Shown here in pieces: positions 50,973-64,000 of a stretch of DNA of 64,000 nt. The position numbers and the translations under genes were made by a program. Below the pieces are notes generated by a model that was not told where the DNA came from, ran no database searches, and was given only the letters and a program-made list of their open reading frames with translations. How positions within the stretch are numbered: position 1 is the stretch's first letter; every line of letters begins with the position of its first letter. The DNA lies in the NCBI RefSeq assembly GCF_002005445.1, contig NZ_CP014692.1, positions 1,178,001-1,242,000 of the forward strand, given 5' to 3'. Source of the DNA: Acetobacter aceti. Its GTDB lineage: Bacteria > Pseudomonadota > Alphaproteobacteria > Acetobacterales > Acetobacteraceae.

Positions 50973-51860
50973 TTATTCCACATCCCCCAATAGCCGTGAA
51001 GCGGCCGCCGCTGCTGCTGCCCGTCCACTGAAACCCGCCTTGTTATAAAGCTGTTCCGTATGTTTATCGATCGTGCGAGGGCTGATACTGAGGATTTCAG
51101 CAATATCACGGCTACTCTTGCCACGGCTGATCCAGAGAAGCACTTCCGCCTCCCGTGCGCTGAGACCGAATTTTTCCTGTAGAATCTGCTCTGGCCGATC
51201 CAGCTGAAAGGCGATGGAGAACAGCCATTCCTGCGGCCCATCTCGTCCGATAAACGTGACGCGTAGAACACCATTCTGGTAAGGACTGGTGAAAATGACC
51301 TGTCCGGGTTCCGATTTTTTTCTGACAAATTCAGAGAAACTCTCGGGAGAAGATAACTGCGCCAGAAATTCTGCGGCTTTGGGGGTGGACCAGAGTAGTT
51401 CACCGCTGTCATCCAGAGCGAAGAAGCGTCTGCCCACGCTATCCAGTGCCGCATGAGCAGTCCGGATACGACGTGCTGCAATCAGGTGAATTTCAATGCG
51501 TGCCAGAACTTCCGCGAAATGAAATGGTTTGGTCACATAATCAGTGGCGCCAGCTTCAAAAGCCCGTAGGACATGTTCGATTTCTGTCAGGCCGGTCATG
51601 AAGATGACGGGTAGAGCGTTGAGTGTGGCATCTGCTTTCATGCTGCGGCAGACATCCCATCCACTCAGTCCCGGCATGATCGCATCGACCAGTACGAGAT
51701 CGGGGAGGGTCCGGTTCATGACTTCAAAGGCGCTGTCACCGGATTGCGCCAGAAGAACCGAGTAACCGGCATTTGTCAGAGCTTCATCCATCATGCCGAG
51801 AGCGGCAGGATCGTCATCAATCACGAGAAGAGTGGAGCGGGAGGATGTTTCACGTGTCAT
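50973..51860 (-). CDS. LuxR/NarL-type response regulator of the permease-kinase
   Basis: 295 aa. Receiver domain with acidic pocket (VIDDDPAA), phospho-acceptor Asp59 (LVLVDAIMPGLSG), Thr89 and Lys111 (VTKPF). A middle PAS-like segment of ~100 residues (FFALDDSGELLWSTPKAAEFL) is unusual. The C-terminal HTH (about 231-290) reads FGLSAREAEVLLWISRGKSS and ILSISPRTIDKHTEQLYNKA. It overlaps the hybrid kinase gene by 4 nt (ATGA), so it is the likely output partner. A 7-2-7 palindrome of NarL geometry in the urtA promoter is a candidate target. Confidence 0.88.
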   Translation of the reverse strand: MTRETSSRSTLLVIDDDPAALGMMDEALTNAGYSVLLAQSGDSAFEVMNRTLPDLVLVDAIMPGLSGWDVCRSMKADATLNALPVIFMTGLTEIEHVLRAFEAGATDYVTKPFHFAEVLARIEIHLIAARRIRTAHAALDSVGRRFFALDDSGELLWSTPKAAEFLAQLSSPESFSEFVRKKSEPGQVIFTSPYQNGVLRVTFIGRDGPQEWLFSIAFQLDRPEQILQEKFGLSAREAEVLLWISRGKSSRDIAEILSISPRTIDKHTEQLYNKAGFSGRAAAAAAASRLLGDVE

Positions 51861-54800
51861 GCGGGAAGGTCCTCCAGTAAACGTCTGACAGTCTCAAGTT
51901 GATAAGTGCGGGCTGCTTCCTGAATAGGGGCAAGAGTCGTGACAAGATGGGGGTGACTGTTGCAAAGAAGGTCAAGTTTCTGTCGTAAAAGACGGACGTT
52001 TCCTGAATTGATCAATTCAGTGAGTTCCATTTTCTCATCGAGCGTCAAGGGAGTGTCCGATACAGCGGATAGCCGGGTGTTTTCAGAATGAAGCACAGCT
52101 TCATCTTCTGCTGTCGATATTGGAAGAATTTCACCTGAAAGATCATTATTTTCAGAATCGAAAATCCATTTGATATCCAGAAGCCGTCCGATTTCATCGA
52201 GGAGAGTCTGAAAGTCCACGGGTTTCGGCAGGACCGTGCAGTCATCCAGAGAGGGAACGCGCCGTGACGCCAGTTCGGTGACATTGCCGGTGAGAAAGAG
52301 CAGGGGAAGATGGCCTGCGCTGGTTTCCCGGATACGCAGCGCCAGTTCCCGTCCATCCATGCCCGGCATGGAAAGATCGAGAATGATCAGGTCCGGTAGG
52401 TCTGCTTTCAGAAGTTCGAGACATTCAATGCCGCCTGAGACATCGCGGACGTTGAAATGTCTGGAGCCAAGAAATTCATGCATCATGCGCCGGTGGGCAG
52501 CATTATCATCGACCACGAGTATGGTTTTACATGAGCCTTCATAGCCTGATGGCAGCCCCTGAAGAGCCGGAGCTGCATCTTCAGCCCGATCGGACAGGAG
52601 CAACCGCACTCGGAAACGTGTTCCGTGTCCCACTTCACTCATCAGGGTGAGTTCTCCTCCCAGAATGTGGGTGAGAAGCCGTGTGATGGTCAGCCCAAGA
52701 CCTGTGCCCGGCACGGCGTCTCCTGCAGCTCTTTCGAAAGGCTCGAAAATCCGTTCCTGATCAACGAGCGCAATTCCGGGGCCTGTATCTTCAATGATGA
52801 ATTCAGCAATCTGGCCGCGCCAGTTTACCGTGAATGTTACCGAGCCTGACTGGGTGAATTTTACGGCATTGGAAAGCAGGTTCAGCAGGATCTGACGCAG
52901 ACGATGCTCATCTCCCATCACTACAGGTGGCAGATATCCAGGATGATAATGGAAATCCAGCTTTTTGGCGCGTGCTTGTGGCCGCACCATCTGCACAACG
53001 GTATTGAGAAACTGGCTCAGAGCGATCCTGTCGCTATAAAGCTCGATGCGACCGGCTTCAATTTTGGAAATATCGAGAAGTCCTGTCAGAAGTCCCGTCA
53101 TATGCTCACCACTTTCCCGCATGGTGCGTAGAACGTCCTGCCGGTCTGTAGGAATGCGATGATCGTTCTGAAGGATCTGCGTGTAGCCCATGATGGTGTT
53201 CAGGGGGGCTCTGATTTCGTGACTGATTCCACTCAGATAACGGGTTTTTGCAAGGCTGGCGGCCTCGGCCTTTTCCCGCGCCCGTTTGAGGGCTTCATCC
53301 GTGCGTTGGTGGGCACGGATCTCGTTCATCAGCAGATGAGTCTGGCGACGGGTTTCTTCACCTGCGGCCTGTCGTCCATCCTGTCCGAGGACGACGAGCC
53401 AGGATGTCAGAACGACAAGAAAAAACAGAAGGAGATAAGTGTGATTATGAGCAAACGAGCTGTCTCCAATCAGCAGCATTGCCGCTGTGCCCAGTCCTGC
53501 AAAAAGAAAAAAACGTCCTTTTGTAGATAGAAGAAAACTCTTTATTTTTCTGGGAAACAATTCAAACGGAAGGCTGAACTGTTGTCTCAGATGCGTGACG
53601 GGTGGTTTGCAGCGATCATTGCAGCGTGCGTCCAGTGAACAGCAGAGCGAGCAGATCGCCCCTCCATAAGCCGGGCAGCGGGCCATGTCGGTCGCTTCAA
53701 AACTATGTTCACAAATCACGCATTTCATGGAGTGGCGTGTGTTCCAGTCGGCAGGCGCCCGGCGTGCGAGATAGGTTCTCCCACCTGTCAACGCTGCAAG
53801 AAAGGGTGTCACCAGAAAGGACAGACCTAACGCGATGAACGGTGAAAAAGCTGCGGCATAAGGCCCGAAATAACCGTCAGTGCAGAGAATCCCTGTCACA
53901 GCGCCTGTAAGAGCCGCTCCCAGTCCCACGGGGTTGATGTCTGGCAGAAGGGCGCGCTTGAATTCAACAAAAGAGGGGCTGAGTTTGAGAGGTTTGCAAA
54001 GCACGATGTCGGCGAGGATGGGGCCGATCCATGCTGCCGCAAGGTCCGCATACAGCACGATGCCGGTCTCAATGGTGCTGACCAGTCCTGCAAGCATGAG
54101 AAGGAGGGCAAGAGCTACCGTGAACAGGACATAGAACACCCGTCCTGGATGGGAATGTGTCAGGCGTGAAAAGAAGTTCGACCAGGCGAGAGAGCCGGCA
54201 TAGGCGTTGGTGATGTTGATCTTGAACTGGGCGACGATGACGAGTGCTGCGGTGGCGAGCGTAGCGAATGGCGGTGACAGAAATGTTCCGTAGGCGAGCC
54301 TGTACATCTGTTGCGGCTGCACGGAGCGTTCGGGGGAAAAACCGGCATGAAGAACGGCCCATGCCAGAAAAGATCCGGCGAAAAGTTTTGCGGCGTCAAA
54401 TACGATCCACCCTGGTCCACCCGCGATCAGTGCACACCACCAGCCAAACCGGTTGTCTCGGGAGAGTGTCGGCATGAAACGCAGAAAATCGACCTGTTCC
54501 GCACTCTGGCAGATCAGCACAAACATGATGGACGCCGCACTGCCGATGGCGAAGATATTGACGGGCTGGGTGGAGGCCAATCCCTTGAACTGAACCCAGT
54601 CACCAACCCAGTCCGGGTGAGCGTAGAGAATGGCGATCAGCGGAATAAGGTTGAGTGCGAACCACAGGGGCAGGGAGAAGATCTGGAACCGTGCAATAAA
54701 ACGGAATCCGCCGGTCACCAGTGGAATGACAAGGAGAGCCGCAAGACAGCAGGCGATGGTATGAGAAATACCGGGAATCTGCTCCAGTAACGCAGCCAGA

Positions 54801-55267
54801 ATGGCGGCCTCGATCCCGAAGAAAATGAAGGTGAAACTCGCATAGATCAGCGAGGTGAGGGTCGAGCCGATATAGCCGAACCCCGTGCCGCGTGTAAGCA
54901 GATCGATGTCGAGACCGCTGCGCGCGGCGGTGGCGCAGATCGGCAGACTGACCAGAAAGATCACTACGCTGACAAAGAGAATGGCAAGCGCAGTGTTGGA
55001 AAAGCCGAACGCCATGGTCAGCGTGCCGCCGATGGCTTCAAGCGCCAGAAAGGAGATGGAGCCGAGCGCCGTCAGGGCTGCCCGCAAGGGTGTCGCAGCC
55101 CGGGCGGAACGGGCTGTAAAGCGCAGGGCGTAATCCTCGAGCGACTGGTCGGCTGCCCAACGGTTATAGTCGCGCCGCATGCGTACGATGCGTAATGGCC
55201 TCATGGCTGGGCGCCTGGGCACCCGGACAACTGCTCCTGCATCTCTGTTTTCCTTTGCATCTCTCAT
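51857..55267 (-). CDS. NCS1-type permease fused to hybrid histidine kinase
   Basis: 1136 aa. Residues ~30-500 form a ~12-helix domain resembling NCS1 nucleobase/cytosine permeases (DYALRFTARSAR, then FGFSNTALAILF and GSAASIMFVLICQSAEQVDF). A cysteine cluster follows (517-553: CVIC, C, CSLCC, C, C), perhaps zinc- or redox-binding, then two more helices (~585-630). The kinase core has His683 (SGISHEIRAPLN), N-box (LLNLLSNAVKF, ~795-805), DTGPG (827-831) and GTGLGL (854-859). A receiver follows with Asp964 (IILDLSMPGMDG) and a helical tail resembling a histidine-less HPt. It is divergent from urtA. It recalls CbrA, which fuses a different transporter family to a kinase. Confidence 0.88.
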   Translation of the reverse strand: MRDAKENRDAGAVVRVPRRPAMRPLRIVRMRRDYNRWAADQSLEDYALRFTARSARAATPLRAALTALGSISFLALEAIGGTLTMAFGFSNTALAILFVSVVIFLVSLPICATAARSGLDIDLLTRGTGFGYIGSTLTSLIYASFTFIFFGIEAAILAALLEQIPGISHTIACCLAALLVIPLVTGGFRFIARFQIFSLPLWFALNLIPLIAILYAHPDWVGDWVQFKGLASTQPVNIFAIGSAASIMFVLICQSAEQVDFLRFMPTLSRDNRFGWWCALIAGGPGWIVFDAAKLFAGSFLAWAVLHAGFSPERSVQPQQMYRLAYGTFLSPPFATLATAALVIVAQFKINITNAYAGSLAWSNFFSRLTHSHPGRVFYVLFTVALALLLMLAGLVSTIETGIVLYADLAAAWIGPILADIVLCKPLKLSPSFVEFKRALLPDINPVGLGAALTGAVTGILCTDGYFGPYAAAFSPFIALGLSFLVTPFLAALTGGRTYLARRAPADWNTRHSMKCVICEHSFEATDMARCPAYGGAICSLCCSLDARCNDRCKPPVTHLRQQFSLPFELFPRKIKSFLLSTKGRFFLFAGLGTAAMLLIGDSSFAHNHTYLLLFFLVVLTSWLVVLGQDGRQAAGEETRRQTHLLMNEIRAHQRTDEALKRAREKAEAASLAKTRYLSGISHEIRAPLNTIMGYTQILQNDHRIPTDRQDVLRTMRESGEHMTGLLTGLLDISKIEAGRIELYSDRIALSQFLNTVVQMVRPQARAKKLDFHYHPGYLPPVVMGDEHRLRQILLNLLSNAVKFTQSGSVTFTVNWRGQIAEFIIEDTGPGIALVDQERIFEPFERAAGDAVPGTGLGLTITRLLTHILGGELTLMSEVGHGTRFRVRLLLSDRAEDAAPALQGLPSGYEGSCKTILVVDDNAAHRRMMHEFLGSRHFNVRDVSGGIECLELLKADLPDLIILDLSMPGMDGRELALRIRETSAGHLPLLFLTGNVTELASRRVPSLDDCTVLPKPVDFQTLLDEIGRLLDIKWIFDSENNDLSGEILPISTAEDEAVLHSENTRLSAVSDTPLTLDEKMELTELINSGNVRLLRQKLDLLCNSHPHLVTTLAPIQEAARTYQLETVRRLLEDLPA

Positions 55268-55291: not shown

Positions 55292-55307
55292 TACGCAAGT
55301 TTGCGTA
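55292..55307. promoter_or_regulatory. Perfect 7-2-7 palindrome in the urtA/kinase promoter
   Basis: TACGCAA-GT-TTGCGTA: two perfect 7-bp arms with a 2-bp centre. NarL-family regulators bind heptamers beginning TAC arranged 7-2-7. The site lies between the divergent kinase gene and urtA, 55 bp upstream of the urtA ATG. It is a strong candidate operator for the adjacent LuxR-type response regulator. The assignment is inference. Confidence 0.6.
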
Positions 55308-55362: not shown

Positions 55363-56688
55363 ATGACGACGTCGCCGCGTTTCTCCCGCCGTGATTTTAC
55401 GAAATTCAGTCTCGCTGCATCTGCCGCGATGCTCGCCGGTGTGAAAGGTGCCGCTGCAGCCCCGAAAGGCGAGCCGATCCGCATTGGCGTGCTGCATTCC
55501 CTGTCCGGAACCATGGCCATCAGCGAGACCACGCTGAAAGACGTCATCCTGATGCTGGTCGAGTTGCAGAATCGTAAAGGCGGCGTGCTTGGACGTCCGC
55601 TGGAAGCGGTCGTGGTTGATCCGGCCTCCAACTGGCCGCTGTTCGCGGAGAAAGCCCGTCAGCTTCTTGCCGTGGACAAGGTGGCGTCTGTGTTCGGTTG
55701 CTGGACCAGCGTGTCCCGCAAGTCGGTGCTGCCGGTGTTCGAGGAACTCAACGGCATTCTGTTCTACCCCGTGCAGTATGAAGGGCAGGAGTGCAGCCGC
55801 AATGTGTTCTACACTGGGGCCGCCCCCAACCAGCAGGCCATTCCGGCTGTGGACTATCTTCTCAGCGCCGATGGCGGCGGAGCGAAGCGTTTCGCATTGA
55901 TCGGCACGGACTACGTCTATCCGCGCACAACAAACCAGATTCTCCAGAATTACCTGAAATCCAAAGGCATCGCGGACGCCGACATCATGGTGAACTACAC
56001 GCCGTTCGGACAGTCCGACTGGCAGACCATCGTGTCCCAGCTCAAGGCGTTCGGTTCCGCGGGTAAGAAAACAGCCGTCGTATCCACCATCAATGGTGAC
56101 GCCAATGTCCCGTTCTATAAGGAACTGGGCGCACAGGGCATCACGGCCACGGATATTCCGGTCATGGCCTTCAGTGTTGGCGAGGAAGAACTGGCGGGTA
56201 TGGATACCAAGCCGCTCGTCGGCCAACTCGCCGCCTGGAACTATTTCGAGAGCATCGATAGTCCCGCCAACAAGTCCTTCATCAAGGAGTGGCATACCTA
56301 CACGAAGAACCCGAAGCGCACGACGAACGATCCGATGGAAGCCTCCTATATCGGCTTCAATCTGTGGGTGCAGGCGGTCGAGAAGGTCGGTTCCACCGAT
56401 CATGACAAGGTTATCGACGCGATGGTCGGTCTGAAGCAGGCCAACCTGACGGGCGGCACGGCGAAGGTTCTGCCAAACCATCACATCACGAAGCCGGTCT
56501 ATATCGGCGAGATTCAGGATGACGGGCAGTTCAACGTCGTCTGGCAGACGCCGAAGGAAGTGCCGGGCATGGCCTGGTCGCCTTACGTGGCCGAGACGAA
56601 GAACCTGATCGGCGACTGGACCAAGCCCATCAACTGCGGAAATTACGACACGGTCAAAAAAGCCTGTCTCGGAGCAAAGCATGGCTGA
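55363..56688 (+). CDS. urtA: Urea ABC transporter substrate-binding protein
   Basis: Periplasmic urea-binding protein. The start at ATG 55363 (AGAAGGACAGAGG upstream) gives 441 aa with a twin-arginine signal (FSRRDFTKFSLAA). The family pattern is clear: VGVLHSLSGTMAISE-type start (here IGVLHSLSGTMAIS), VFGCWTSVSRKSVLPVFEE, LFYPVQYEGQECSRNVFYTG, YVYPRTTNQIL and GGTAKVLPNHHITKPVYIGE, all typical of UrtA. It leads an operon with urtBCDE, overlapping urtB by 8 nt. Confidence 0.95.
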   Translation: MTTSPRFSRRDFTKFSLAASAAMLAGVKGAAAAPKGEPIRIGVLHSLSGTMAISETTLKDVILMLVELQNRKGGVLGRPLEAVVVDPASNWPLFAEKARQLLAVDKVASVFGCWTSVSRKSVLPVFEELNGILFYPVQYEGQECSRNVFYTGAAPNQQAIPAVDYLLSADGGGAKRFALIGTDYVYPRTTNQILQNYLKSKGIADADIMVNYTPFGQSDWQTIVSQLKAFGSAGKKTAVVSTINGDANVPFYKELGAQGITATDIPVMAFSVGEEELAGMDTKPLVGQLAAWNYFESIDSPANKSFIKEWHTYTKNPKRTTNDPMEASYIGFNLWVQAVEKVGSTDHDKVIDAMVGLKQANLTGGTAKVLPNHHITKPVYIGEIQDDGQFNVVWQTPKEVPGMAWSPYVAETKNLIGDWTKPINCGNYDTVKKACLGAKHG

Positions 56689-58339
56689 CGTTGCGATGTC
56701 GGGTCCGGCAGCTCTTTCCGGCCGGAAACTGTGGAACGGTGCGCGGGGTATCTTCGCCGCCGTCCTTCTGAGCCTGCTTTTCATCCAGCCTGATAGCGCC
56801 CGGGCTGATGAAGATGCATTCGCCGGGCTTGCGACAACGCAGTTCAACACCATCGCTTCATCAGTCGATCAGATCGCGCAGCAGGGAGGGCCCAGAGCTC
56901 TCCCTGTTCTGCGTGCTCTGGCCGACAAGAAACTTTTTGCCGCCAGTGAAGGCGACGCTCTGTTCATCCGTAAGGGCGACAGTTGGGAGGATGCCCGTTC
57001 CGGTGTTCCCGCTACCCCGGATGAGACGACGCTGCGGCCTGTAAGGGTCAATAATCGTGTCAGACTTGCCGTTGCGGCAGCCGAGGCTGAACTGGAACTC
57101 GTTTCCGGCACGCCTGCGGAAAGACAGGCTTCCGCAACGGTGTTCTACCAGCGCCACGATCCGGCCATGCTGCCTGCCATCGACAAGGCGCTGTCAAAAA
57201 CTGATGACGCCACCCTGAAGGATACATTGCTTAACGCCCGTGCGGCGGCTCTGCTCAGTCCCGGCGCTCCGGCGTCTGACGCACAGGCCCAGCAACAGGC
57301 TGTCGCCAAACTCAGGGCGGCAGGCGGTCTTGATGCCCGCGGCATTCTGGCTCAGGCCTCAACAGAGGAGACGCTTGACCCAGCAACACGCAAAGCTGCG
57401 GAAGAAGCGGTTTCCTCAATCGACTTCGAGCTGAGACTGTGGGGTTTCGGGCAGGACGCCTTTTACGGCATGAGTCTGGGTTCCGTGTTGCTGCTGGCCG
57501 CGATGGGGCTCGCCATCACATTCGGCGTCATGGGTGTGATCAACATGGCTCATGGCGAACTGATGATGATCGGCGCCTACACGACGTGGCTGACGCAGAA
57601 AGCCGTGCTTTCAGTGGCACCCGCTCTGGGGTCTTTCAGTCTGGTTCTGGCGATTCCCGCAGCCTTTCTGGTGTGCGGTGCGCTGGGGATCGTGATTGAG
57701 CGCGGGCTGATCCGCTTTCTCTATGGCCGTCCGCTTGAAACACTGCTGGCGACATGGGGACTTTCCCTCATTCTTCAACAGGTCATCCGCTCCCTGTTCG
57801 GACCGACCAACGTGGCGGTGACCACGCCCCCCTGGCTGTCCGGCTCCTTCCATCTGGGCGGTATCGAGGTCACGATTGATCGTCTCGCCATCATGATCTT
57901 TGCGGTCGTGGTCATGGCGGGTCTGACGTTGGTGTTGCGCCGTACACCGCTCGGACTGCAAATGCGCGCTGTCACCCAGAACCGGCGTATGGCGGCGTTG
58001 ATGGGTATCCGCACGGCGCGGGTTGATGCGCTGACTTTCGGCCTCGGGTCGGGTATTGCCGGGCTGGCGGGCGTTGCGGTCAGTCAGATCGACAATGTCA
58101 GCCCCAATCTCGGACAGAGCTACATTATCGACAGCTTCCTCGTCGTTGTGTTCGGTGGCGTGGGCAATCTGTGGGGCACTCTGGCGGCGGCGGCCACGCT
58201 CGGTATCGGCGGCAAGGCTCTTGAGCCGCTGGTCGGCGCCGTGTCGGGCAAGATCCTGCTGCTCGTCCTCGTCATTCTCTACATTCAGCGTCATCCACGC
58301 GGCATGTTTCCGCTGCGGGGCCGGGGAGTGGAATCGTGA
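56681..58339 (+). CDS. urtB: Urea ABC transporter permease UrtB
   Basis: 552 aa. The N-terminus has a signal-like helix (IFAAVLLSLLFIQPDSARA) and a ~190-residue extracytoplasmic region (ATVFYQRHDPAMLPAIDKAL, helical, repeat-like) that distinguishes UrtB from LivH. The LivH-type permease domain begins near residue 250 (GFGQDAFYGMSLGSVLLLAA, FGVMGVINMAHGELMMIGAY) and ends ILYIQRHPRGMFPLRGR. Overlaps urtC by 4 nt. Confidence 0.93.
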   Translation: MADVAMSGPAALSGRKLWNGARGIFAAVLLSLLFIQPDSARADEDAFAGLATTQFNTIASSVDQIAQQGGPRALPVLRALADKKLFAASEGDALFIRKGDSWEDARSGVPATPDETTLRPVRVNNRVRLAVAAAEAELELVSGTPAERQASATVFYQRHDPAMLPAIDKALSKTDDATLKDTLLNARAAALLSPGAPASDAQAQQQAVAKLRAAGGLDARGILAQASTEETLDPATRKAAEEAVSSIDFELRLWGFGQDAFYGMSLGSVLLLAAMGLAITFGVMGVINMAHGELMMIGAYTTWLTQKAVLSVAPALGSFSLVLAIPAAFLVCGALGIVIERGLIRFLYGRPLETLLATWGLSLILQQVIRSLFGPTNVAVTTPPWLSGSFHLGGIEVTIDRLAIMIFAVVVMAGLTLVLRRTPLGLQMRAVTQNRRMAALMGIRTARVDALTFGLGSGIAGLAGVAVSQIDNVSPNLGQSYIIDSFLVVVFGGVGNLWGTLAAAATLGIGGKALEPLVGAVSGKILLLVLVILYIQRHPRGMFPLRGRGVES

Positions 58340-59460
58340 ACGCATCCCTCTCATTTCGTGGCGCGTCCGTCACCGCGGTCATTGTCGTTCTGCTGACGGG
58401 TGTGCTGGCGGTGGGTAGCCTGCTGCCCGCTTCCAGCCCTGTGCAGGTGTCACCGTTCATCATGACGCTCGCCGGCAAGTATCTGGCTTATGCCATGCTC
58501 GCGCTTGCTGTTGATCTGGTCTGGGGCTTTGCCGGAATCCTGACGCTCGGGCATGCGGCCTTCTTCGCGCTCGGCGGCTATGCGATGGGCATGTATCTCG
58601 TGCGGGAAATCGGCGCACGCGGTGTCTATGGCAATGCGGACCTGCCGGATTTCATGGTCTTCCTGTCATGGAAAAGCCTGCCCTGGTACTGGTGGGGCTC
58701 CGACCATTTTCCGGTGGCATTGGCGCTGATGCTGGTCGTGCCGGCCGCTCTGGCCGGGCTGTTCGGCTGGCTGGCGTTCCGTTCCCGCGTCTCGGGCGTC
58801 TATCTGTCGATCATCACACAGGCGCTGACCTACGCGCTGATGCTGGCGTTCTTTCAGAATGGCTTCGGGTTTGGTGGTAATAACGGTCTGACCGATTTCA
58901 AGGACATCCTTGGATTTGATCTGCACAGCTCTTACACCCGCGCCGGGATGCTGTTCATCAGCGGGCTTATCCTTGCGGGAGCATTGCTGGCAGGCCGCTA
59001 CGTAGTCGGTGGCCGGTTCGGAAGTCTGCTGATCGCCGTGCGTGATGCAGAGAGCCGGACACGGTTTCTTGGTTATCGTCCGGAACAGATGAAGCTGCTG
59101 GTCTGGGTGTTCTCCGCCATCATCGCGGCGATCGGTGGCGCGCTCTACGTCATCCAGGTCGGCATCATCAACCCTGGCGAATTCGCGCCCGCCAACTCCA
59201 TCGAAGCCGTGATCTGGGTGGCAGTCGGTGGACGCGGCACACTGTCCGGCGCGGTTATCGGTGCAATCCTCGTCAATCTTGGCAAAACACTGTTCACGGC
59301 CTGGCTGCCGGAAATGTGGCTCTACGGTCTTGGGGCGCTCTTCATGGCGACCACGCTGTTTCTCCCGCAGGGACTGATGGGGCTGATGCGTCATATACCG
59401 AAAAAACGGCCTTCTGAAGTAACGCCTGAAGTGACCAGTCCGGAAGGAGAGGAGGCATGA
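58336..59460 (+). CDS. urtC: Urea ABC transporter permease UrtC
   Basis: 374 aa from GTG 58336. A LivM-type permease: YLAYAMLALAVDLVWGFAGI and LGHAAFFALGGYAMGMYL at the N-terminal half, VYLSIITQALTYALMLAFFQ and NNGLTDFKDILGF in the middle, and VAVGGRGTLSGAVIGAILVN near the C-terminus. The gene overlaps urtB and urtD by 4 nt each (GTGA/ATGA), so translation of the operon is tightly coupled. Confidence 0.93.
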   Translation: MNASLSFRGASVTAVIVVLLTGVLAVGSLLPASSPVQVSPFIMTLAGKYLAYAMLALAVDLVWGFAGILTLGHAAFFALGGYAMGMYLVREIGARGVYGNADLPDFMVFLSWKSLPWYWWGSDHFPVALALMLVVPAALAGLFGWLAFRSRVSGVYLSIITQALTYALMLAFFQNGFGFGGNNGLTDFKDILGFDLHSSYTRAGMLFISGLILAGALLAGRYVVGGRFGSLLIAVRDAESRTRFLGYRPEQMKLLVWVFSAIIAAIGGALYVIQVGIINPGEFAPANSIEAVIWVAVGGRGTLSGAVIGAILVNLGKTLFTAWLPEMWLYGLGALFMATTLFLPQGLMGLMRHIPKKRPSEVTPEVTSPEGEEA

Positions 59461-60197
59461 GCACCGGAACTCTGCTTGAGCTGAGCCATGTTTCCGTCAC
59501 GTTCGACGGTTTCCGGGCCATCAATGATCTGTCCCTGTCGCTGGCTCCGGGTGAAATGCGGGCTATTGTCGGTCCGAATGGCGCTGGCAAGACCACGATG
59601 ATGGATATCATCACCGGCAAGACGCGCCCTGATGCGGGTGTGGTCCGGTTCCGCGAGCATGATCTGACGAAACTGGATGAACCCGCCATCGCCCGCATGG
59701 GGATTGGCCGGAAATTCCAGAAACCCACGGTGTTCGAAGAACTCACTGTTCGTGATAACCTCTTGCTGTCGCTGAAAGGATTGCGTTCCCCTTTCGCTTT
59801 GCTTTTCGCGAAGGAAACAGCGGAAGAGAAAGCACGGATCGACGGTCTGCTGGGTACGATCCGTCTGGGTCGTGAGGCGACCCGGCAGGCCGGTGGCCTG
59901 AGCCATGGTCAGAAGCAGTGGCTGGAGATCGGGATGCTTCTTGGACAGGAGCCGGATCTTCTGCTGGTCGATGAACCTGTGGCGGGCATGACGGACGCGG
60001 AGACCATGGAGACGGCTGATCTTCTGCGCGAGATCAACCGCACCCGCAGCGTCGTGGTTGTGGAGCATGACATGGAGTTCGTGCGGGCGCTGGATGTCAA
60101 AGTCACCGTGCTGCACGAAGGTTCGGTTCTCGCAGAGGGCGAGCTGGATCAGGTGAGCAACGATCCGCGTGTGATCGAAGTGTATCTCGGACGCTGA
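59457..60197 (+). CDS. urtD: Urea ABC transporter ATP-binding protein UrtD
   Basis: 246 aa, LivG-type ATPase. Walker A GPNGAGKT (39-46), signature LSHGQKQWLEIG, Walker B LLLVDEPVAGMT and H-loop VVVEHDMEFVR. The signature with His (LSHGQ) is usual for UrtD/LivG proteins. RKFQKPTVFEELTVRDNLLL is typical of the urea branch. It lies between urtC (4-nt overlap) and urtE (12-nt gap). Confidence 0.93.
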   Translation: MSTGTLLELSHVSVTFDGFRAINDLSLSLAPGEMRAIVGPNGAGKTTMMDIITGKTRPDAGVVRFREHDLTKLDEPAIARMGIGRKFQKPTVFEELTVRDNLLLSLKGLRSPFALLFAKETAEEKARIDGLLGTIRLGREATRQAGGLSHGQKQWLEIGMLLGQEPDLLLVDEPVAGMTDAETMETADLLREINRTRSVVVVEHDMEFVRALDVKVTVLHEGSVLAEGELDQVSNDPRVIEVYLGR

Positions 60198-60209
60198 GGA
60201 AACAGACAG

Positions 60210-60905
60210 ATGCTCGACGTTGAGGACATTCAGCTTCATTACGGCGCGGCGATTGCCCTGCGTGGAGTTTCTCTTTCGGCGCGTGCTGGCGCCGTAACGT
60301 GCCTGCTGGGGCGCAATGGTGTCGGCAAGACCAGCGTTCTGCGTGCGGTCACGGGGATGCATGCCGTTTCATCCGGCAAGATCATGTGGGAAGGAGAGGA
60401 CATTACGCGCCTGCCTGCCTATGAACGGGCGCGGCGGGGTATTGCGACTGTTCCACAGGGACGCGATATTTTTCCGTTGCTGACGGTGAAGGAAAATCTG
60501 GAAACCGGATTTGGCCTTCTGCCGCGTGGCCAGAGGAAAGTGTCGGACGAGATTTATGACCTCTTTCCCATTCTGGCAAAGATGCGGGACCGTCGGGGAG
60601 GCGATCTGTCGGGTGGCCAGCAGCAGCAGCTTGCCATCGGCCGGGCGCTCGTCATTCGCCCGCGCCTGCTGGTTCTGGATGAGCCGACGGAGGGCATTCA
60701 GCCGAGTATCATCAAGGACATCGGTTCGGTAATCGGTATGCTGCGGGACCGGGGAGACATGGCGATCCTGCTGGTCGAGCAGTATTTCGATTTCGCCTAT
60801 GAACTGGCGCAGGATGTGGTGGTTCTGGACCGAGGCAAGGTCGTTGCCAGCGGCGCGGTGGGAGCGCTGGACGCCGAGGATATTCGAGGGCTGGTGGCGA
60901 TTTGA
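60210..60905 (+). CDS. urtE: Urea ABC transporter ATP-binding protein UrtE
   Basis: 231 aa, LivF-type ATPase. Walker A GRNGVGKT (34-41), PQGRDIFPLLTVKENL, signature LSGGQQQQLAIGRAL, Walker B LLVLDEPTEGIQPSI and H-loop VEQYFDFA. GIQPSI is characteristic of UrtE. It is the last gene of urtABCDE. No urease genes are in the window; imported urea must be used by enzymes encoded elsewhere. Confidence 0.93.
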   Translation: MLDVEDIQLHYGAAIALRGVSLSARAGAVTCLLGRNGVGKTSVLRAVTGMHAVSSGKIMWEGEDITRLPAYERARRGIATVPQGRDIFPLLTVKENLETGFGLLPRGQRKVSDEIYDLFPILAKMRDRRGGDLSGGQQQQLAIGRALVIRPRLLVLDEPTEGIQPSIIKDIGSVIGMLRDRGDMAILLVEQYFDFAYELAQDVVVLDRGKVVASGAVGALDAEDIRGLVAI

Positions 60906-60946: not shown

Positions 60947-61031
60947 GCTTTCTGACAGTCTTGTAAACAGATTGGTAACTGTTTTCGGGCCACGAAACGA
61001 GTGACAGATTTTCCTGATGGAGGGTTTGGTG

Positions 61032-61607
61032 ATGCGTTTCTTCAGACAGTCTTTTCTGGTCAGATTTTCAGTGAGTGCTCTGGTTGCCGGCATGGCGGCT
61101 GCCGCCCTCTCCTCGCATGCATTGGCGCAGGAGATAATTCGGGTTGTTGACGCTCAGGGGCATCAGATCGGCGTGCTGATCCGTACGCCGTCCGGCATGG
61201 CTGAGGACGTTGCTTCCGCGCAGTCGTTTTTTGAGAACATGGACCGCATGCTGGCGCAGCAGATGGCGATCATGCAGAGGTCTGAGCAGCATATGCTGGA
61301 GATTGCTCACCAGTCGCCAGCGGACGGCGTGGTCGGCGGAACTTCCTACCAATCTGTCACCAGCATAAGTTGGGGTGGGAGGGGAACAGTTTGCTCCCAA
61401 ACCATCACAACGAGCCAGAACGGAGAATCCGCACCGGTTGTGCATGTTTCAGGAACGGGAAACGGCACTGGTTGCATGCATGATAGTTCTGCGTCGTCTG
61501 CACGAAGTGATCCATCACAGTCGGCGCATCAGCAGGATCTGATCCCGGCGGTTGATGTCGGTCATGTAGAAAAAGAGCCGGCTGAAAAATCATCCAGTCG
61601 CATGTGA
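61032..61607 (+). CDS. Exported hypothetical protein
   Basis: 191 aa with ATG 61032 and GGAGG 8 nt upstream; an in-frame ATG at 61017 is less favoured. A signal peptide (MRFFRQSFLVRFSVSALVAG through SSHALA-QE) predicts a periplasmic product. The mature part starts IIRVVDAQGHQIGVLIRTP, has a Met/Gln-rich helix (FENMDRMLAQQMAIMQRSEQ), two cysteines (GTVCSQT, TGCMHD) that could form a disulfide, and a polar Ser/Glu-rich tail. No family is recognised. It follows the urt operon with its own spacing and may be unrelated to it. Confidence 0.7.
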   Translation: MRFFRQSFLVRFSVSALVAGMAAAALSSHALAQEIIRVVDAQGHQIGVLIRTPSGMAEDVASAQSFFENMDRMLAQQMAIMQRSEQHMLEIAHQSPADGVVGGTSYQSVTSISWGGRGTVCSQTITTSQNGESAPVVHVSGTGNGTGCMHDSSASSARSDPSQSAHQQDLIPAVDVGHVEKEPAEKSSSRM

Positions 61608-61649: not shown

Positions 61650-62037
61650 GCTCGAAGAGCTTCTGTTGGCATGGCCTTCAAGAGATATTTTTAATATGTC
61701 TCCATGGTTTGCGAGCTGCCTTGCATAATCAGAAAAGGACATGAATGTCAGTTCCGGCATGCGTTCAGTCCGCCCATGATCGGGGATGTTACGCTACGGA
61801 AAGACGAAACCGGATTTGGTTTGTCTGGCATATCGGCGCAAGAATTTTCGTGAAAATATAGAGTTTGATTGTCTGTTCGGCGAACCAGGCGTAGTTGGAG
61901 CGGCTGGCGCGTTCTCAGATATCTTGTTGAGAAATCTTCGACGGTCCTGCGGTATATTCGAGTTCGCGGACTGTATAAAGCACGGGCTTCAGATCCTCTC
62001 GGCAGGAATGACTGAAGAGTGTTCGGTCGCGCGGATC
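61650..62037. other. Non-coding gap before the convergent TonB receptor gene
   Basis: About 390 bp. Open frames exist on the plus strand but lack ribosome sites, family motifs or sensible composition. No RNA gene or mobile element is recognised. Confidence 0.35.
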
Positions 62038-62069
62038 GGGTGTATTTCGGAATTGTCTGAAATACACCC
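62038..62069 (-). terminator. Hairpin terminator of the second TonB receptor gene
   Basis: A perfect 11-bp stem GGGTGTATTTC (62038-62048) with 62059-62069 and a 10-nt loop, 21 nt beyond the minus-strand stop codon. There is no clear T-run. Confidence 0.6.
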
Positions 62070-62089
62070 GTTACATGCGAAATCCGTGT

Positions 62090-64000
62090 TCAGAGCGACA
62101 GATCTGCGCGTAGGTAGTAAAATCCACCATTCATGCCGAGCTGTGATGTGCTCATGTAATATTGCGGCACACCGAGATAGCGATTGCCATCCGGCACCCG
62201 GCTGGGGCGTTTATCGAAAATATTGTTGCCGCCAATCGTGAACGAAAGCTTCGGCATGACGTGATAGGTGACTTCGAGGTTTGTCACGAATTTCGGCGTG
62301 TTACGGAACGGCAGAAAGTCCGTGCTTGAAAGTGCGCTGGAATTTGTGGCGCCCGTATAATAGGTCAGTTCCGATGTCGTCTGACCCCAGCGGATTTCGT
62401 GAAGCCCGACAGACAGCTTGCCGTCGCCGCTGGTGTAGCGACCTCCCCAGATCATCTTGCTGCGTGGATAACCTGTGGTGATGTAGGCGATGGACTGCGC
62501 CGTCAGCAGATTGTTGCCCTGTGCATCAGTGCCCTGATGGGTCAGGCGTGTGCGGTTGAGGTTGATGCCGACATCCCAGTCGATATGCCCATAAACGCCG
62601 AGGCTGGTCGGATAGGTGGCGGTGATATCAAGTCCCTGAGTGCGTGTGCTGGCGACATTGGCGAACCAGTGGGTTGAAAGCGAAGCCGAACTCCAGCTCG
62701 CCGCTTCGGAAGGTAACTGGAAGCCGTTGGCGTTAAGTGCGGTAATAGCCTGATCGCCATAGACGTTGCCGCCCGGCAGGATCTGATCGCGCAGGTTGAT
62801 CTGATAGACGTCGGCTGTAATGTGAAGTTTCTTGACGGGTTCAATGATGATGCCACCAGTAGCGCTGGTTGAACGCTCCGGCTTTAGGGATGTGGCTCCG
62901 TTCGCCAGTGCGCCCGGCGAGTTCGCACCGATGATACCGCGCGCGGCCGTCGGTGAGAGCGCGACGGAACTGTAATATTCCTGAGCAAGCGTCGGAGCAT
63001 GGAAACCATTCGAAATGGTGCTACGGAAACCGAGCCAGGGAAGCGGATCATAGCGAAGCGCCGCCTTGCCGGTCTCGGTGTCGGAGACATCCGTATAATG
63101 CTCGTAACGGCCCGCCAGATCGAGTTGCAGATTTTTTGCCAGATGCGTGGCGACGTCGATATATCCGCCGACGACGTCGCGGCTGAAATGGCCTGCATTC
63201 TGATAGGTGGTGCCGGCGAGCGCATCTGAGCCGGAACCATAGGTTGAAGCGACTGACCCGGTGCCGATCGCGTAACTTTCATAACGGTAGGTTGCGCCAC
63301 CTGCCACATTGATGGCGTGGGGCCAGCCGTCGATATGAAAAGCCTTGCTCAGATCGAAGGAGTTGCTCCACATCTCGTTGTTGAAGCCCTGCACGGCGAA
63401 ACGGGTCGGCGTCTGACCTGTGGCAGCCGCCAGTGAGTAATTGGCCGAGTTTTTCAGACCGATATTATCGTAGTCACGGCCATAGACGGAGGAGAGATCC
63501 CAGTGCCAGTGGTCGAGATCACCTTTCAGACCGGCTGTCACTTCCCAGTCATTCTCTTCAAGTGTTTCGAGCGGTGAATACCCGTTGGGATAAATTGCGG
63601 CATAAGCCGGATATTTCGCGAGAGAGGATGCTGTTCGATAATTCTGATAGCTCTCGGCGTGGCGATGCGCATAAGTGGCGACGGCATAGGCTTCGATGGA
63701 GTCAGTCAGATGGTAGCCTGCGGTGATGGACACACTTTCGCGGGTCTGCTCGGGCTGGCCAAGAAGTTTGTTGATCTTGGAGTGGGTGCGCAGGTCATCG
63801 GCGCTGCGGTAGGTGTGATCCTGGTGCAGGAAATCGCCACTGATATGCACATAGCCACGCGAGCCGAGCTTGGCTCCACCGTCGAGATAAATGCCCTGCT
63901 GGAACCCGTCACCGGCTGCCGTAATGCCCGAGATGGAACGGGCGTGAAAACCGTGATCCGTTTTCTTCAGGATGACGTTGACGACGCCAGCGACGGCATC
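62090..64000 (-). CDS. TonB-dependent receptor, 5' end outside window
   Basis: The frame is open to the window edge, so the gene is truncated by the window and not by mutation. The first visible residues DAVAGVVNVILKKTDHG are the end of the plug domain. Barrel strands follow to the C-terminal GFYYLRADLSL, ending in the aromatic/hydrophobic pattern of outer-membrane barrels. Features such as VSGGRYEHYTD-type strands (here LAGRYEHYTDVSDTETGKAA), SNGFHAPTLAQEYYS and GGNNIFDKRPSRVPDGN fit the large group of iron-siderophore/vitamin/sugar receptors. The ligand cannot be told. A GTG at 63850 is internal and is not the start. Confidence 0.85.
   Translation of the reverse strand, partial: DAVAGVVNVILKKTDHGFHARSISGITAAGDGFQQGIYLDGGAKLGSRGYVHISGDFLHQDHTYRSADDLRTHSKINKLLGQPEQTRESVSITAGYHLTDSIEAYAVATYAHRHAESYQNYRTASSLAKYPAYAAIYPNGYSPLETLEENDWEVTAGLKGDLDHWHWDLSSVYGRDYDNIGLKNSANYSLAAATGQTPTRFAVQGFNNEMWSNSFDLSKAFHIDGWPHAINVAGGATYRYESYAIGTGSVASTYGSGSDALAGTTYQNAGHFSRDVVGGYIDVATHLAKNLQLDLAGRYEHYTDVSDTETGKAALRYDPLPWLGFRSTISNGFHAPTLAQEYYSSVALSPTAARGIIGANSPGALANGATSLKPERSTSATGGIIIEPVKKLHITADVYQINLRDQILPGGNVYGDQAITALNANGFQLPSEAASWSSASLSTHWFANVASTRTQGLDITATYPTSLGVYGHIDWDVGINLNRTRLTHQGTDAQGNNLLTAQSIAYITTGYPRSKMIWGGRYTSGDGKLSVGLHEIRWGQTTSELTYYTGATNSSALSSTDFLPFRNTPKFVTNLEVTYHVMPKLSFTIGGNNIFDKRPSRVPDGNRYLGVPQYYMSTSQLGMNGGFYYLRADLSL

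Follow-up and report, generated by a model that had tools for sequence, protein, structure and literature searches.

A putative urea transceptor: a hybrid histidine kinase with an NCS1-like permease domain encoded divergently from urtABCDE in Acetobacter aceti

The stretch of Acetobacter aceti DNA analyzed here (the window; 64,000 nucleotides, positions 1,178,001 to 1,242,000 of NZ_CP014692.1, one contig of 3.73 Mb) carries a gene for a hybrid histidine kinase with an N-terminal permease-like domain, overlapped by a LuxR-type response regulator gene and divergent from the ATP-binding cassette (ABC) importer operon urtABCDE. We propose, with a probability of roughly 75%, that this is a transceptor-type kinase in which an NCS1-like permease domain binds urea as the sensor, and that it regulates urtABCDE via the LuxR-type regulator. 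The kinase consists of the following parts, all on the minus strand.

51857..55267, minus: NCS1-like hybrid histidine kinase, 1136 amino acids (aa), an open and exactly placed open reading frame (ORF)
53753..55195, minus: NCS1-like permease (sensor) domain, residues 25-505 (AlphaFold2 (AF2) model, fold searches, hhalign with CodB-led profiles)
53603..53728, minus: Cys-rich linker with 8 Cys, residues 514-555 (alignment of 110 sequences)
53351..53524, minus: two helices within residues 582-639, joining linker to kinase (AF2 secondary structure)
52595..53251, minus: HisKA and HATPase kinase core with H683, N800 and D827 (Pfam, conservation)
52190..52522, minus: receiver domain with D964 (Pfam, conservation)
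51860..52150, minus: C-terminal tail, residues 1040-1136 (sequence only)

HisKA (residues 673-739), HATPase (785-891) and REC (916-1026) exceeded their Pfam gathering scores, and His683, Asn800, Asp827 and Asp964 were conserved in all covering members of an alignment of 110 kinases that contains near-copies (1-2 gaps at each position). With these three domains and the catalytic His, Asn and Asp, the protein is a hybrid histidine kinase, confirming the complete kinase core and receiver described in an earlier reading made from the letters of the window (the sequence-only reading). The same reading had seen a cysteine cluster followed by two helices, and both were found: the eight Cys are invariant in the 110 sequences and the AF2 model places helices at 582-601 and 610-639. 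It had also described the C-terminal tail as helical. The nearest named homolog, from Acetobacter sicerae, is 95% identical over the part searched and has 1115 aa, so translation may start at Met22 (55204), which would give the same length.

The fusion is not a rarity but a large, already sequenced, uncharacterised family. At least 8000 candidates reached E<=0.001, so the domain combination is not due to chance, and many listed relatives are named histidine kinase/purine-cytosine permease-like by JGI, hence annotation had already noticed the mix. According to precomputed Pfam results for the 120 matches listed, 117 have HATPase, HisKA and REC, two HisKA only and one (P0056) none. Matches were found in 52 of 398 phylum genomes and 27 of 150 family genomes, with A. 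aceti itself counted in both samples.

The N-terminal region had been read as an NCS1-type permease, and structure prediction agreed: the AF2 model of residues 1-640 (pLDDT, the predicted local distance difference test score, 82.7; pTM, the predicted template modelling score, 0.83) was best matched by the NCS1 carriers CodB and Mhp1, and in the fold searches it was nearer to NCS1 than to other LeuT-fold families. Profile searches, proposed as a check of the NCS1 assignment, gave a divided answer. The Pfam model PF02133 gave no match to the sensor region even at E<=10, and the NCBIfam cytosine permease model PRK11017, which matched three of the five kinase sensor domains given, did so here at E 9.2e-9 yet with 34.5 bits, far under its cut-off of 326. 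On the other hand, hhalign of the sensor against CodB-led profiles gave 89.8%, rising to 98.4% when the intermediate L117, a more distant free-standing NCS1 permease (PF02133 3.6e-9), was included; CodB alone gave 9.1%. The predicted fold thus supports viewing the sensor as a divergent, kinase-fused NCS1-like permease. It resembles CodB and Mhp1 in this fold, in the glycine of the break in transmembrane helix (TM) 1 (Gly69 at CodB Gly29) and, by alignment, in Asn351 at CodB Asn280, and differs from them in lying below PF02133 detection, in its fusion to a kinase and in the site residues described next.

According to the available part of its description, CodB binds sodium at Na2 through three carbonyls (Gly29, Phe32, Asn275) and two hydroxyls (Thr278, Thr279), and holds cytosine by the side chains of Gln105, Trp108 and Phe204 (PMC9379551). 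In the alignment via L117 the former correspond to Gly69, Ser72, Ala346, Lys349 and Ile350 of the sensor, and the latter to Thr146, Phe149 and Leu251. The TM3 pairing of Phe149 with Trp108 was unchanged with or without L117, whereas the TM8 register depends on L117 and shifts once it is omitted; the motif STNAMNLYCG of another permease of this genome (L002) aligns by eye with KINITNAYAG of the sensor. Glu153 lies at the position of Mhp1 Gln121, as read from the aligned WFG/FFG motif with the numbering checked on the alignment, and belongs to nine polar positions that are invariant in the 110 kinases (Thr146, Glu153, Gln254, Glu257, Gln258, Lys349, Asn351, Asn354 and Tyr356). Intact sites for Na+ and substrate, a point left for checking by the sequence-only reading, are not what the alignment suggests: within the limit of the L117-dependent TM8 register, a Na2 site of the CodB type was not found. 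Since the Na2 hydroxyls are replaced by Lys349/Ile350 and the nucleobase-stacking aromatic pair by Phe149/Leu251, the site appears to depart from the usual sodium-coupled nucleobase type. In Na+-independent LeuT-fold carriers, charged residues replace Na2. Lys349 may likewise fill the sodium site of the sensor, and sodium coupling would then be lost.

Fusion of a whole LeuT-fold transporter to a kinase is known from RpuS/RpuR, CrbS/CrbR and CbrA/CbrB. As far as the available text of PMC9100948 goes, two systems of Sinorhizobium fredii each pair a hybrid kinase with a LuxR-family regulator from an adjacent gene, and one of these systems, RpuS/RpuR, controls the pyruvate symporter MctP. The kinase described here shares the transporter-kinase fusion, but its carrier is not SLC5, an 8-Cys linker seems to take the STAC position and the linkage is to urea/amide ABC operons. 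Because the carrier family differs it is not a member of the SLC5/STAC kinases, although by analogy it may work like them, and most of all like RpuS/RpuR. The suggestion of a CbrA-like design built on another transporter family has therefore held. No Pfam match over cut-off was obtained for residues 505-670, a result that bears on STAC only if Pfam includes a model of that domain.

The neighboring genes that are relevant to function are listed below, together with a palindrome in the divergent promoter.

50973..51860, minus: REC-LuxR response regulator, 4-nt overlap with the kinase gene (Pfam; in 77/80 loci)
55292..55307, no strand assigned: palindrome TACGCAAGTTTGCGTA within the divergent promoter, a predicted operator for the regulator (pattern searches)
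55363..56688, plus: urtA (TIGR03407, 550.4 bits against a cut-off of 492.75; start read from the sequence, the longest ORF begins at 55195)
56681..58339, plus: urtB (TIGR03409 over cut-off)
58336..59460, plus: urtC (TIGR03408 over cut-off)
59457..60197, plus: urtD (TIGR03411 over cut-off)
60210..60905, plus: urtE (TIGR03410 over cut-off)

All five subunits of the divergent urtABCDE operon thus exceed curated cut-offs. We surveyed the neighborhoods of the best 80 of at least 583 loci, from named genomes, and of a further 29 loci with short flanks, which were the top-scoring matches of the phylum sample with the A. aceti loci left out; these locus counts are not independent, since Bradyrhizobium contributes many of the loci and some genomes contribute more than one copy. 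The regulator was present in 77 of the 80 loci, the three without it being short contigs, and is likely the cognate partner of the kinase. This partnership is supported by P0036, in which kinase and LuxR-type regulator are naturally fused in one 1408-aa chain. A UrtA-type ABC gene occurred in 76/80 loci, always divergent (76/76) and within approximately 0.65 kb in 73; it was lacking in L019 and L085 and also in L046 and L065, whose contigs start only a little ahead of the kinase. Among the 29 phylum-sample loci it was present in 28 and absent from L095. UrtABCDE and the FmdDEF-like amide-linked ABC importers are thus neighbors and likely targets of the kinase, and in our literature search no publication linked such a kinase to either.

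A. aceti carries a second kinase on the same chromosome (locus L116; 47% identity over the sensor), with its own overlapping regulator, a divergent ABC operon of a second type and a formamidase gene adjoining the regulator gene; between the two regulators, 118 residues of 295/300 are identical. When ABC operons were typed by whether their UrtA scored higher with the UrtA of the window or with that of L116, 15 loci were of the window type. UreC was present in 11 of these, and no amidase scored above 200 bits in any of them (in L013 there is a weaker match resembling AmiE). Of the L116 type were 61 loci, 53 with FmdA, AmiE or AmiF and none with UreC, and representatives of these enzymes were confirmed by NF045496 (FmdA), NF009802 (AmiE) and NF009803 (AmiF). 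We therefore label the second type amide-type, from its neighbors. For an ABC operon beside FmdA and AmiE in Bradyrhizobium japonicum, which would be of this same type, amide rather than urea has been argued to be the cargo in the part of PMC3098086 available. An FmdB-type zinc-ribbon (RPWMISH) protein, e.g., L061:3009-3377, also accompanies amide-type loci (tblastn, 51/80 loci).

Among the ligands named by the sequence-only reading, this gene context points to urea, and beyond them to short amides. A kinase sensing a nucleobase, hydantoin or allantoin, as characterised NCS1 carriers would suggest, would agree with CodB and Mhp1 as the best fold matches, but we consider it highly improbable given the urease, formamidase and amidase neighbors and the mapping of the CodB stacking aromatics to Phe149 and Leu251. 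In a tree built from L117 and 69 kinases less than 88% identical, four changes of the urea label were required, at least three of them forced by starred branches, with the Acetobacteraceae-Acidisoma clade, Nevskiaceae, an Aureimonas metagenome-assembled genome and L113 standing apart; the positions of L117 and L116, both on long branches, are poorly supported. Hence coupling of the sensor to the two operon types has arisen repeatedly, an expected outcome if the pocket recognizes the H2N-C(=O) group that urea and amides would have in common. The ABC operon found in 76/80 loci would also suit a kinase that uses the permease as a docking module and monitors, instead of free ligand, either general nitrogen status or the state of UrtABCDE; this is improbable, as nine polar positions are invariant in 110 sequences and kinase-less copies occur in four genomes without a UrtC match.

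The palindrome TACGCAAGTTTGCGTA is the sole TACG-N8-CGTA in the window (shuffle expectation 0.21). The pattern was found in 79 of 106 promoter regions including some duplicates, in 76/102 unique regions and in 62/87 after collapsing similar ones, or 78/87 if CGCA or TGCG variants are allowed, while other spacers of 4-14 gave 0-2 regions. Shuffled sequences averaged 0.23 of the 106 regions and never exceeded 3. In loci of at least 15 kb, it occurred 47 times in 17.8 kb of promoter regions vs. 13 times in 1.30 Mb elsewhere. A tighter form has three sites in the A. aceti genome, namely this promoter, the L116 promoter and a TTCG hairpin between ribosomal-protein-like ORFs. The regulator would thus be predicted to bind the palindrome. 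The half-sites of the two operators of this genome differ (TACGCA in the window, TACGTC at L116), a difference that might separate the targets of the two regulators; over all loci, half-site and linkage type do not go together.

The search of 150 family genomes also yielded five kinase-less copies of the sensor domain (L155-L159), all of which keep the nine invariant pocket residues. L155-L158 come from genomes of 2.0-2.7 Mb, all four urease-positive, and three lie within 6 kb of urease genes: L155 adjoins a NicO nickel permease and is separated from ureC by approximately 5.6 kb that include a UreG-type GTPase gene, L156 is approximately 2 kb from ureC, with ureD, and L158 approximately 1 kb from ureC. 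No UrtC, AmiS_UreI or UT match over cut-off was found in these four genomes, DUR3-type and other carriers not being searched; G495, the genome of L157, has one sub-cut-off UT match. The kinase-less relatives are thus candidate urea permeases. L159 lies downstream of a kinase-regulator pair beside FmdA. The more distant L117 keeps Glu153 but carries Arg at position 349 and other residues at 146, 257 and 258; it lies (L117:5949-10984) beside an AmiC-like binding protein, an AmiR-like ANTAR regulator and a double carbon-nitrogen hydrolase. AmiC/AmiR, which control amidase by amides, are a soluble sensor and an antiterminator, whereas the present sensor is a membrane kinase. We tentatively suggest, at slightly below even odds, an as yet unrecognized NCS1-derived urea/short-amide carrier family in two forms: kinase-less permeases would serve some urease-positive Acetobacteraceae as their urea importers, kinase-fused copies would have become transceptors controlling urea/amide ABC operons, and both would be made Na+-independent by a tethered Lys at the sodium site.

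The pocket kept in kinase-less relatives, together with the CbrA precedent, would also fit a permease that is mainly a urea/amide transporter, with a kinase largely free of ligand control and tuned otherwise. CbrA transports histidine, and its in vitro activities were not significantly affected by histidine, according to the part of PMC7096432 available. We regard this explanation as unlikely, since the conserved ABC importer neighbor makes a second importer partly redundant and the regulator and palindrome fit substrate-specific control.

The linker contains its eight invariant Cys within residues 516-553 and probably binds metal, as judged from these residues; a sub-threshold treble-clef match to this Cys region (PF23550, E 0.057) is the sole Pfam line of the N-terminal region, and no fold assignment was obtained for the linker. 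With residues 508-600 as query, the 398 genomes gave matches in 52, the same number as with the sensor domain, in frames of at least 894 aa except for one weak match in a 158-aa ORF. Four of the eight Cys are present in each of L155-L158 and all eight in L159; because kinase-less relatives carry it wholly or partly, the linker belongs to this family rather than to the fusion alone. The invariance of the eight Cys in 110 kinases could indicate that the linker is the real sensor, of metal or redox, and the permease incidental. This is very improbable, as none of the 61 amide-type loci was found to carry urease, which is a nickel enzyme, and the kinase-less relatives keep the pocket, yet 4/5 retain only 4/8 Cys.

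Under the preferred reading, the permease sensor would bind urea, and that of relatives beside amidases formamide or other short amides, and ligand binding, or transport, would shift the bundle/hash conformation. The movement would be relayed via the 8-Cys linker and the two helices to HisKA, and phosphate passed to the REC-LuxR regulator of the overlapping gene, which would bind the TACG-N8-CGTA palindrome in the interval separating urtA from the kinase gene and switch urtABCDE and its own kinase operon; ligand, response direction and phosphotransfer are all presumed steps. The kinase receiver may act as a phosphate sink, and a search for Hpt domains gave only one match, in a 667-aa ORF.

Several findings weigh against this reading. 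The SLC5 domain of CbrA is dispensable for signaling and histidine is without effect on kinase activity, as stated in the accessible part of PMC7096432, so that a fused permease need not be the input. The urease of A. aceti is approximately 80 kb from the kinase, and L157, one of the four kinase-less genes of small genomes, is not near urease, though its genome is urease-positive. NCBIfam places UrtA, UrtB and UrtC of L116 over urea-transporter cut-offs too, so that only the neighbors give the second ABC type its amide label. The strict palindrome is missing in 26/102 unique and 25/87 non-redundant regions, and genome-wide its tighter form is no commoner than a reversed control (3 vs. 3), hence placement, not number, of the palindromes is the evidence.

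If the proposed function is true, transporter-built kinases extend from SLC5 to a second carrier family, widespread urea/short-amide ABC operons gain a candidate sensor and operator, and a new class of urea permease is indicated. The urt-side and formamidase-side kinases of this one genome, together with the kinase-less copies, make directly testable both the ligand specificity and whether a fused carrier must transport to signal.

Three further observations concern the urt side of the window. Approximately 250 residues precede the TIGR03409 match (259-548 of 552) in UrtB, and are lacking in the 317-aa UrtB of L116. Two ORFs follow urtE (61017-61607 and 61786-62241, plus strand), with no Pfam or NCBIfam match at E<=0.001. 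On the minus strand, 62090-63850 is a TonB-dependent receptor ORF whose sole Pfam match is the barrel domain, and which is possibly plug-less or cut.
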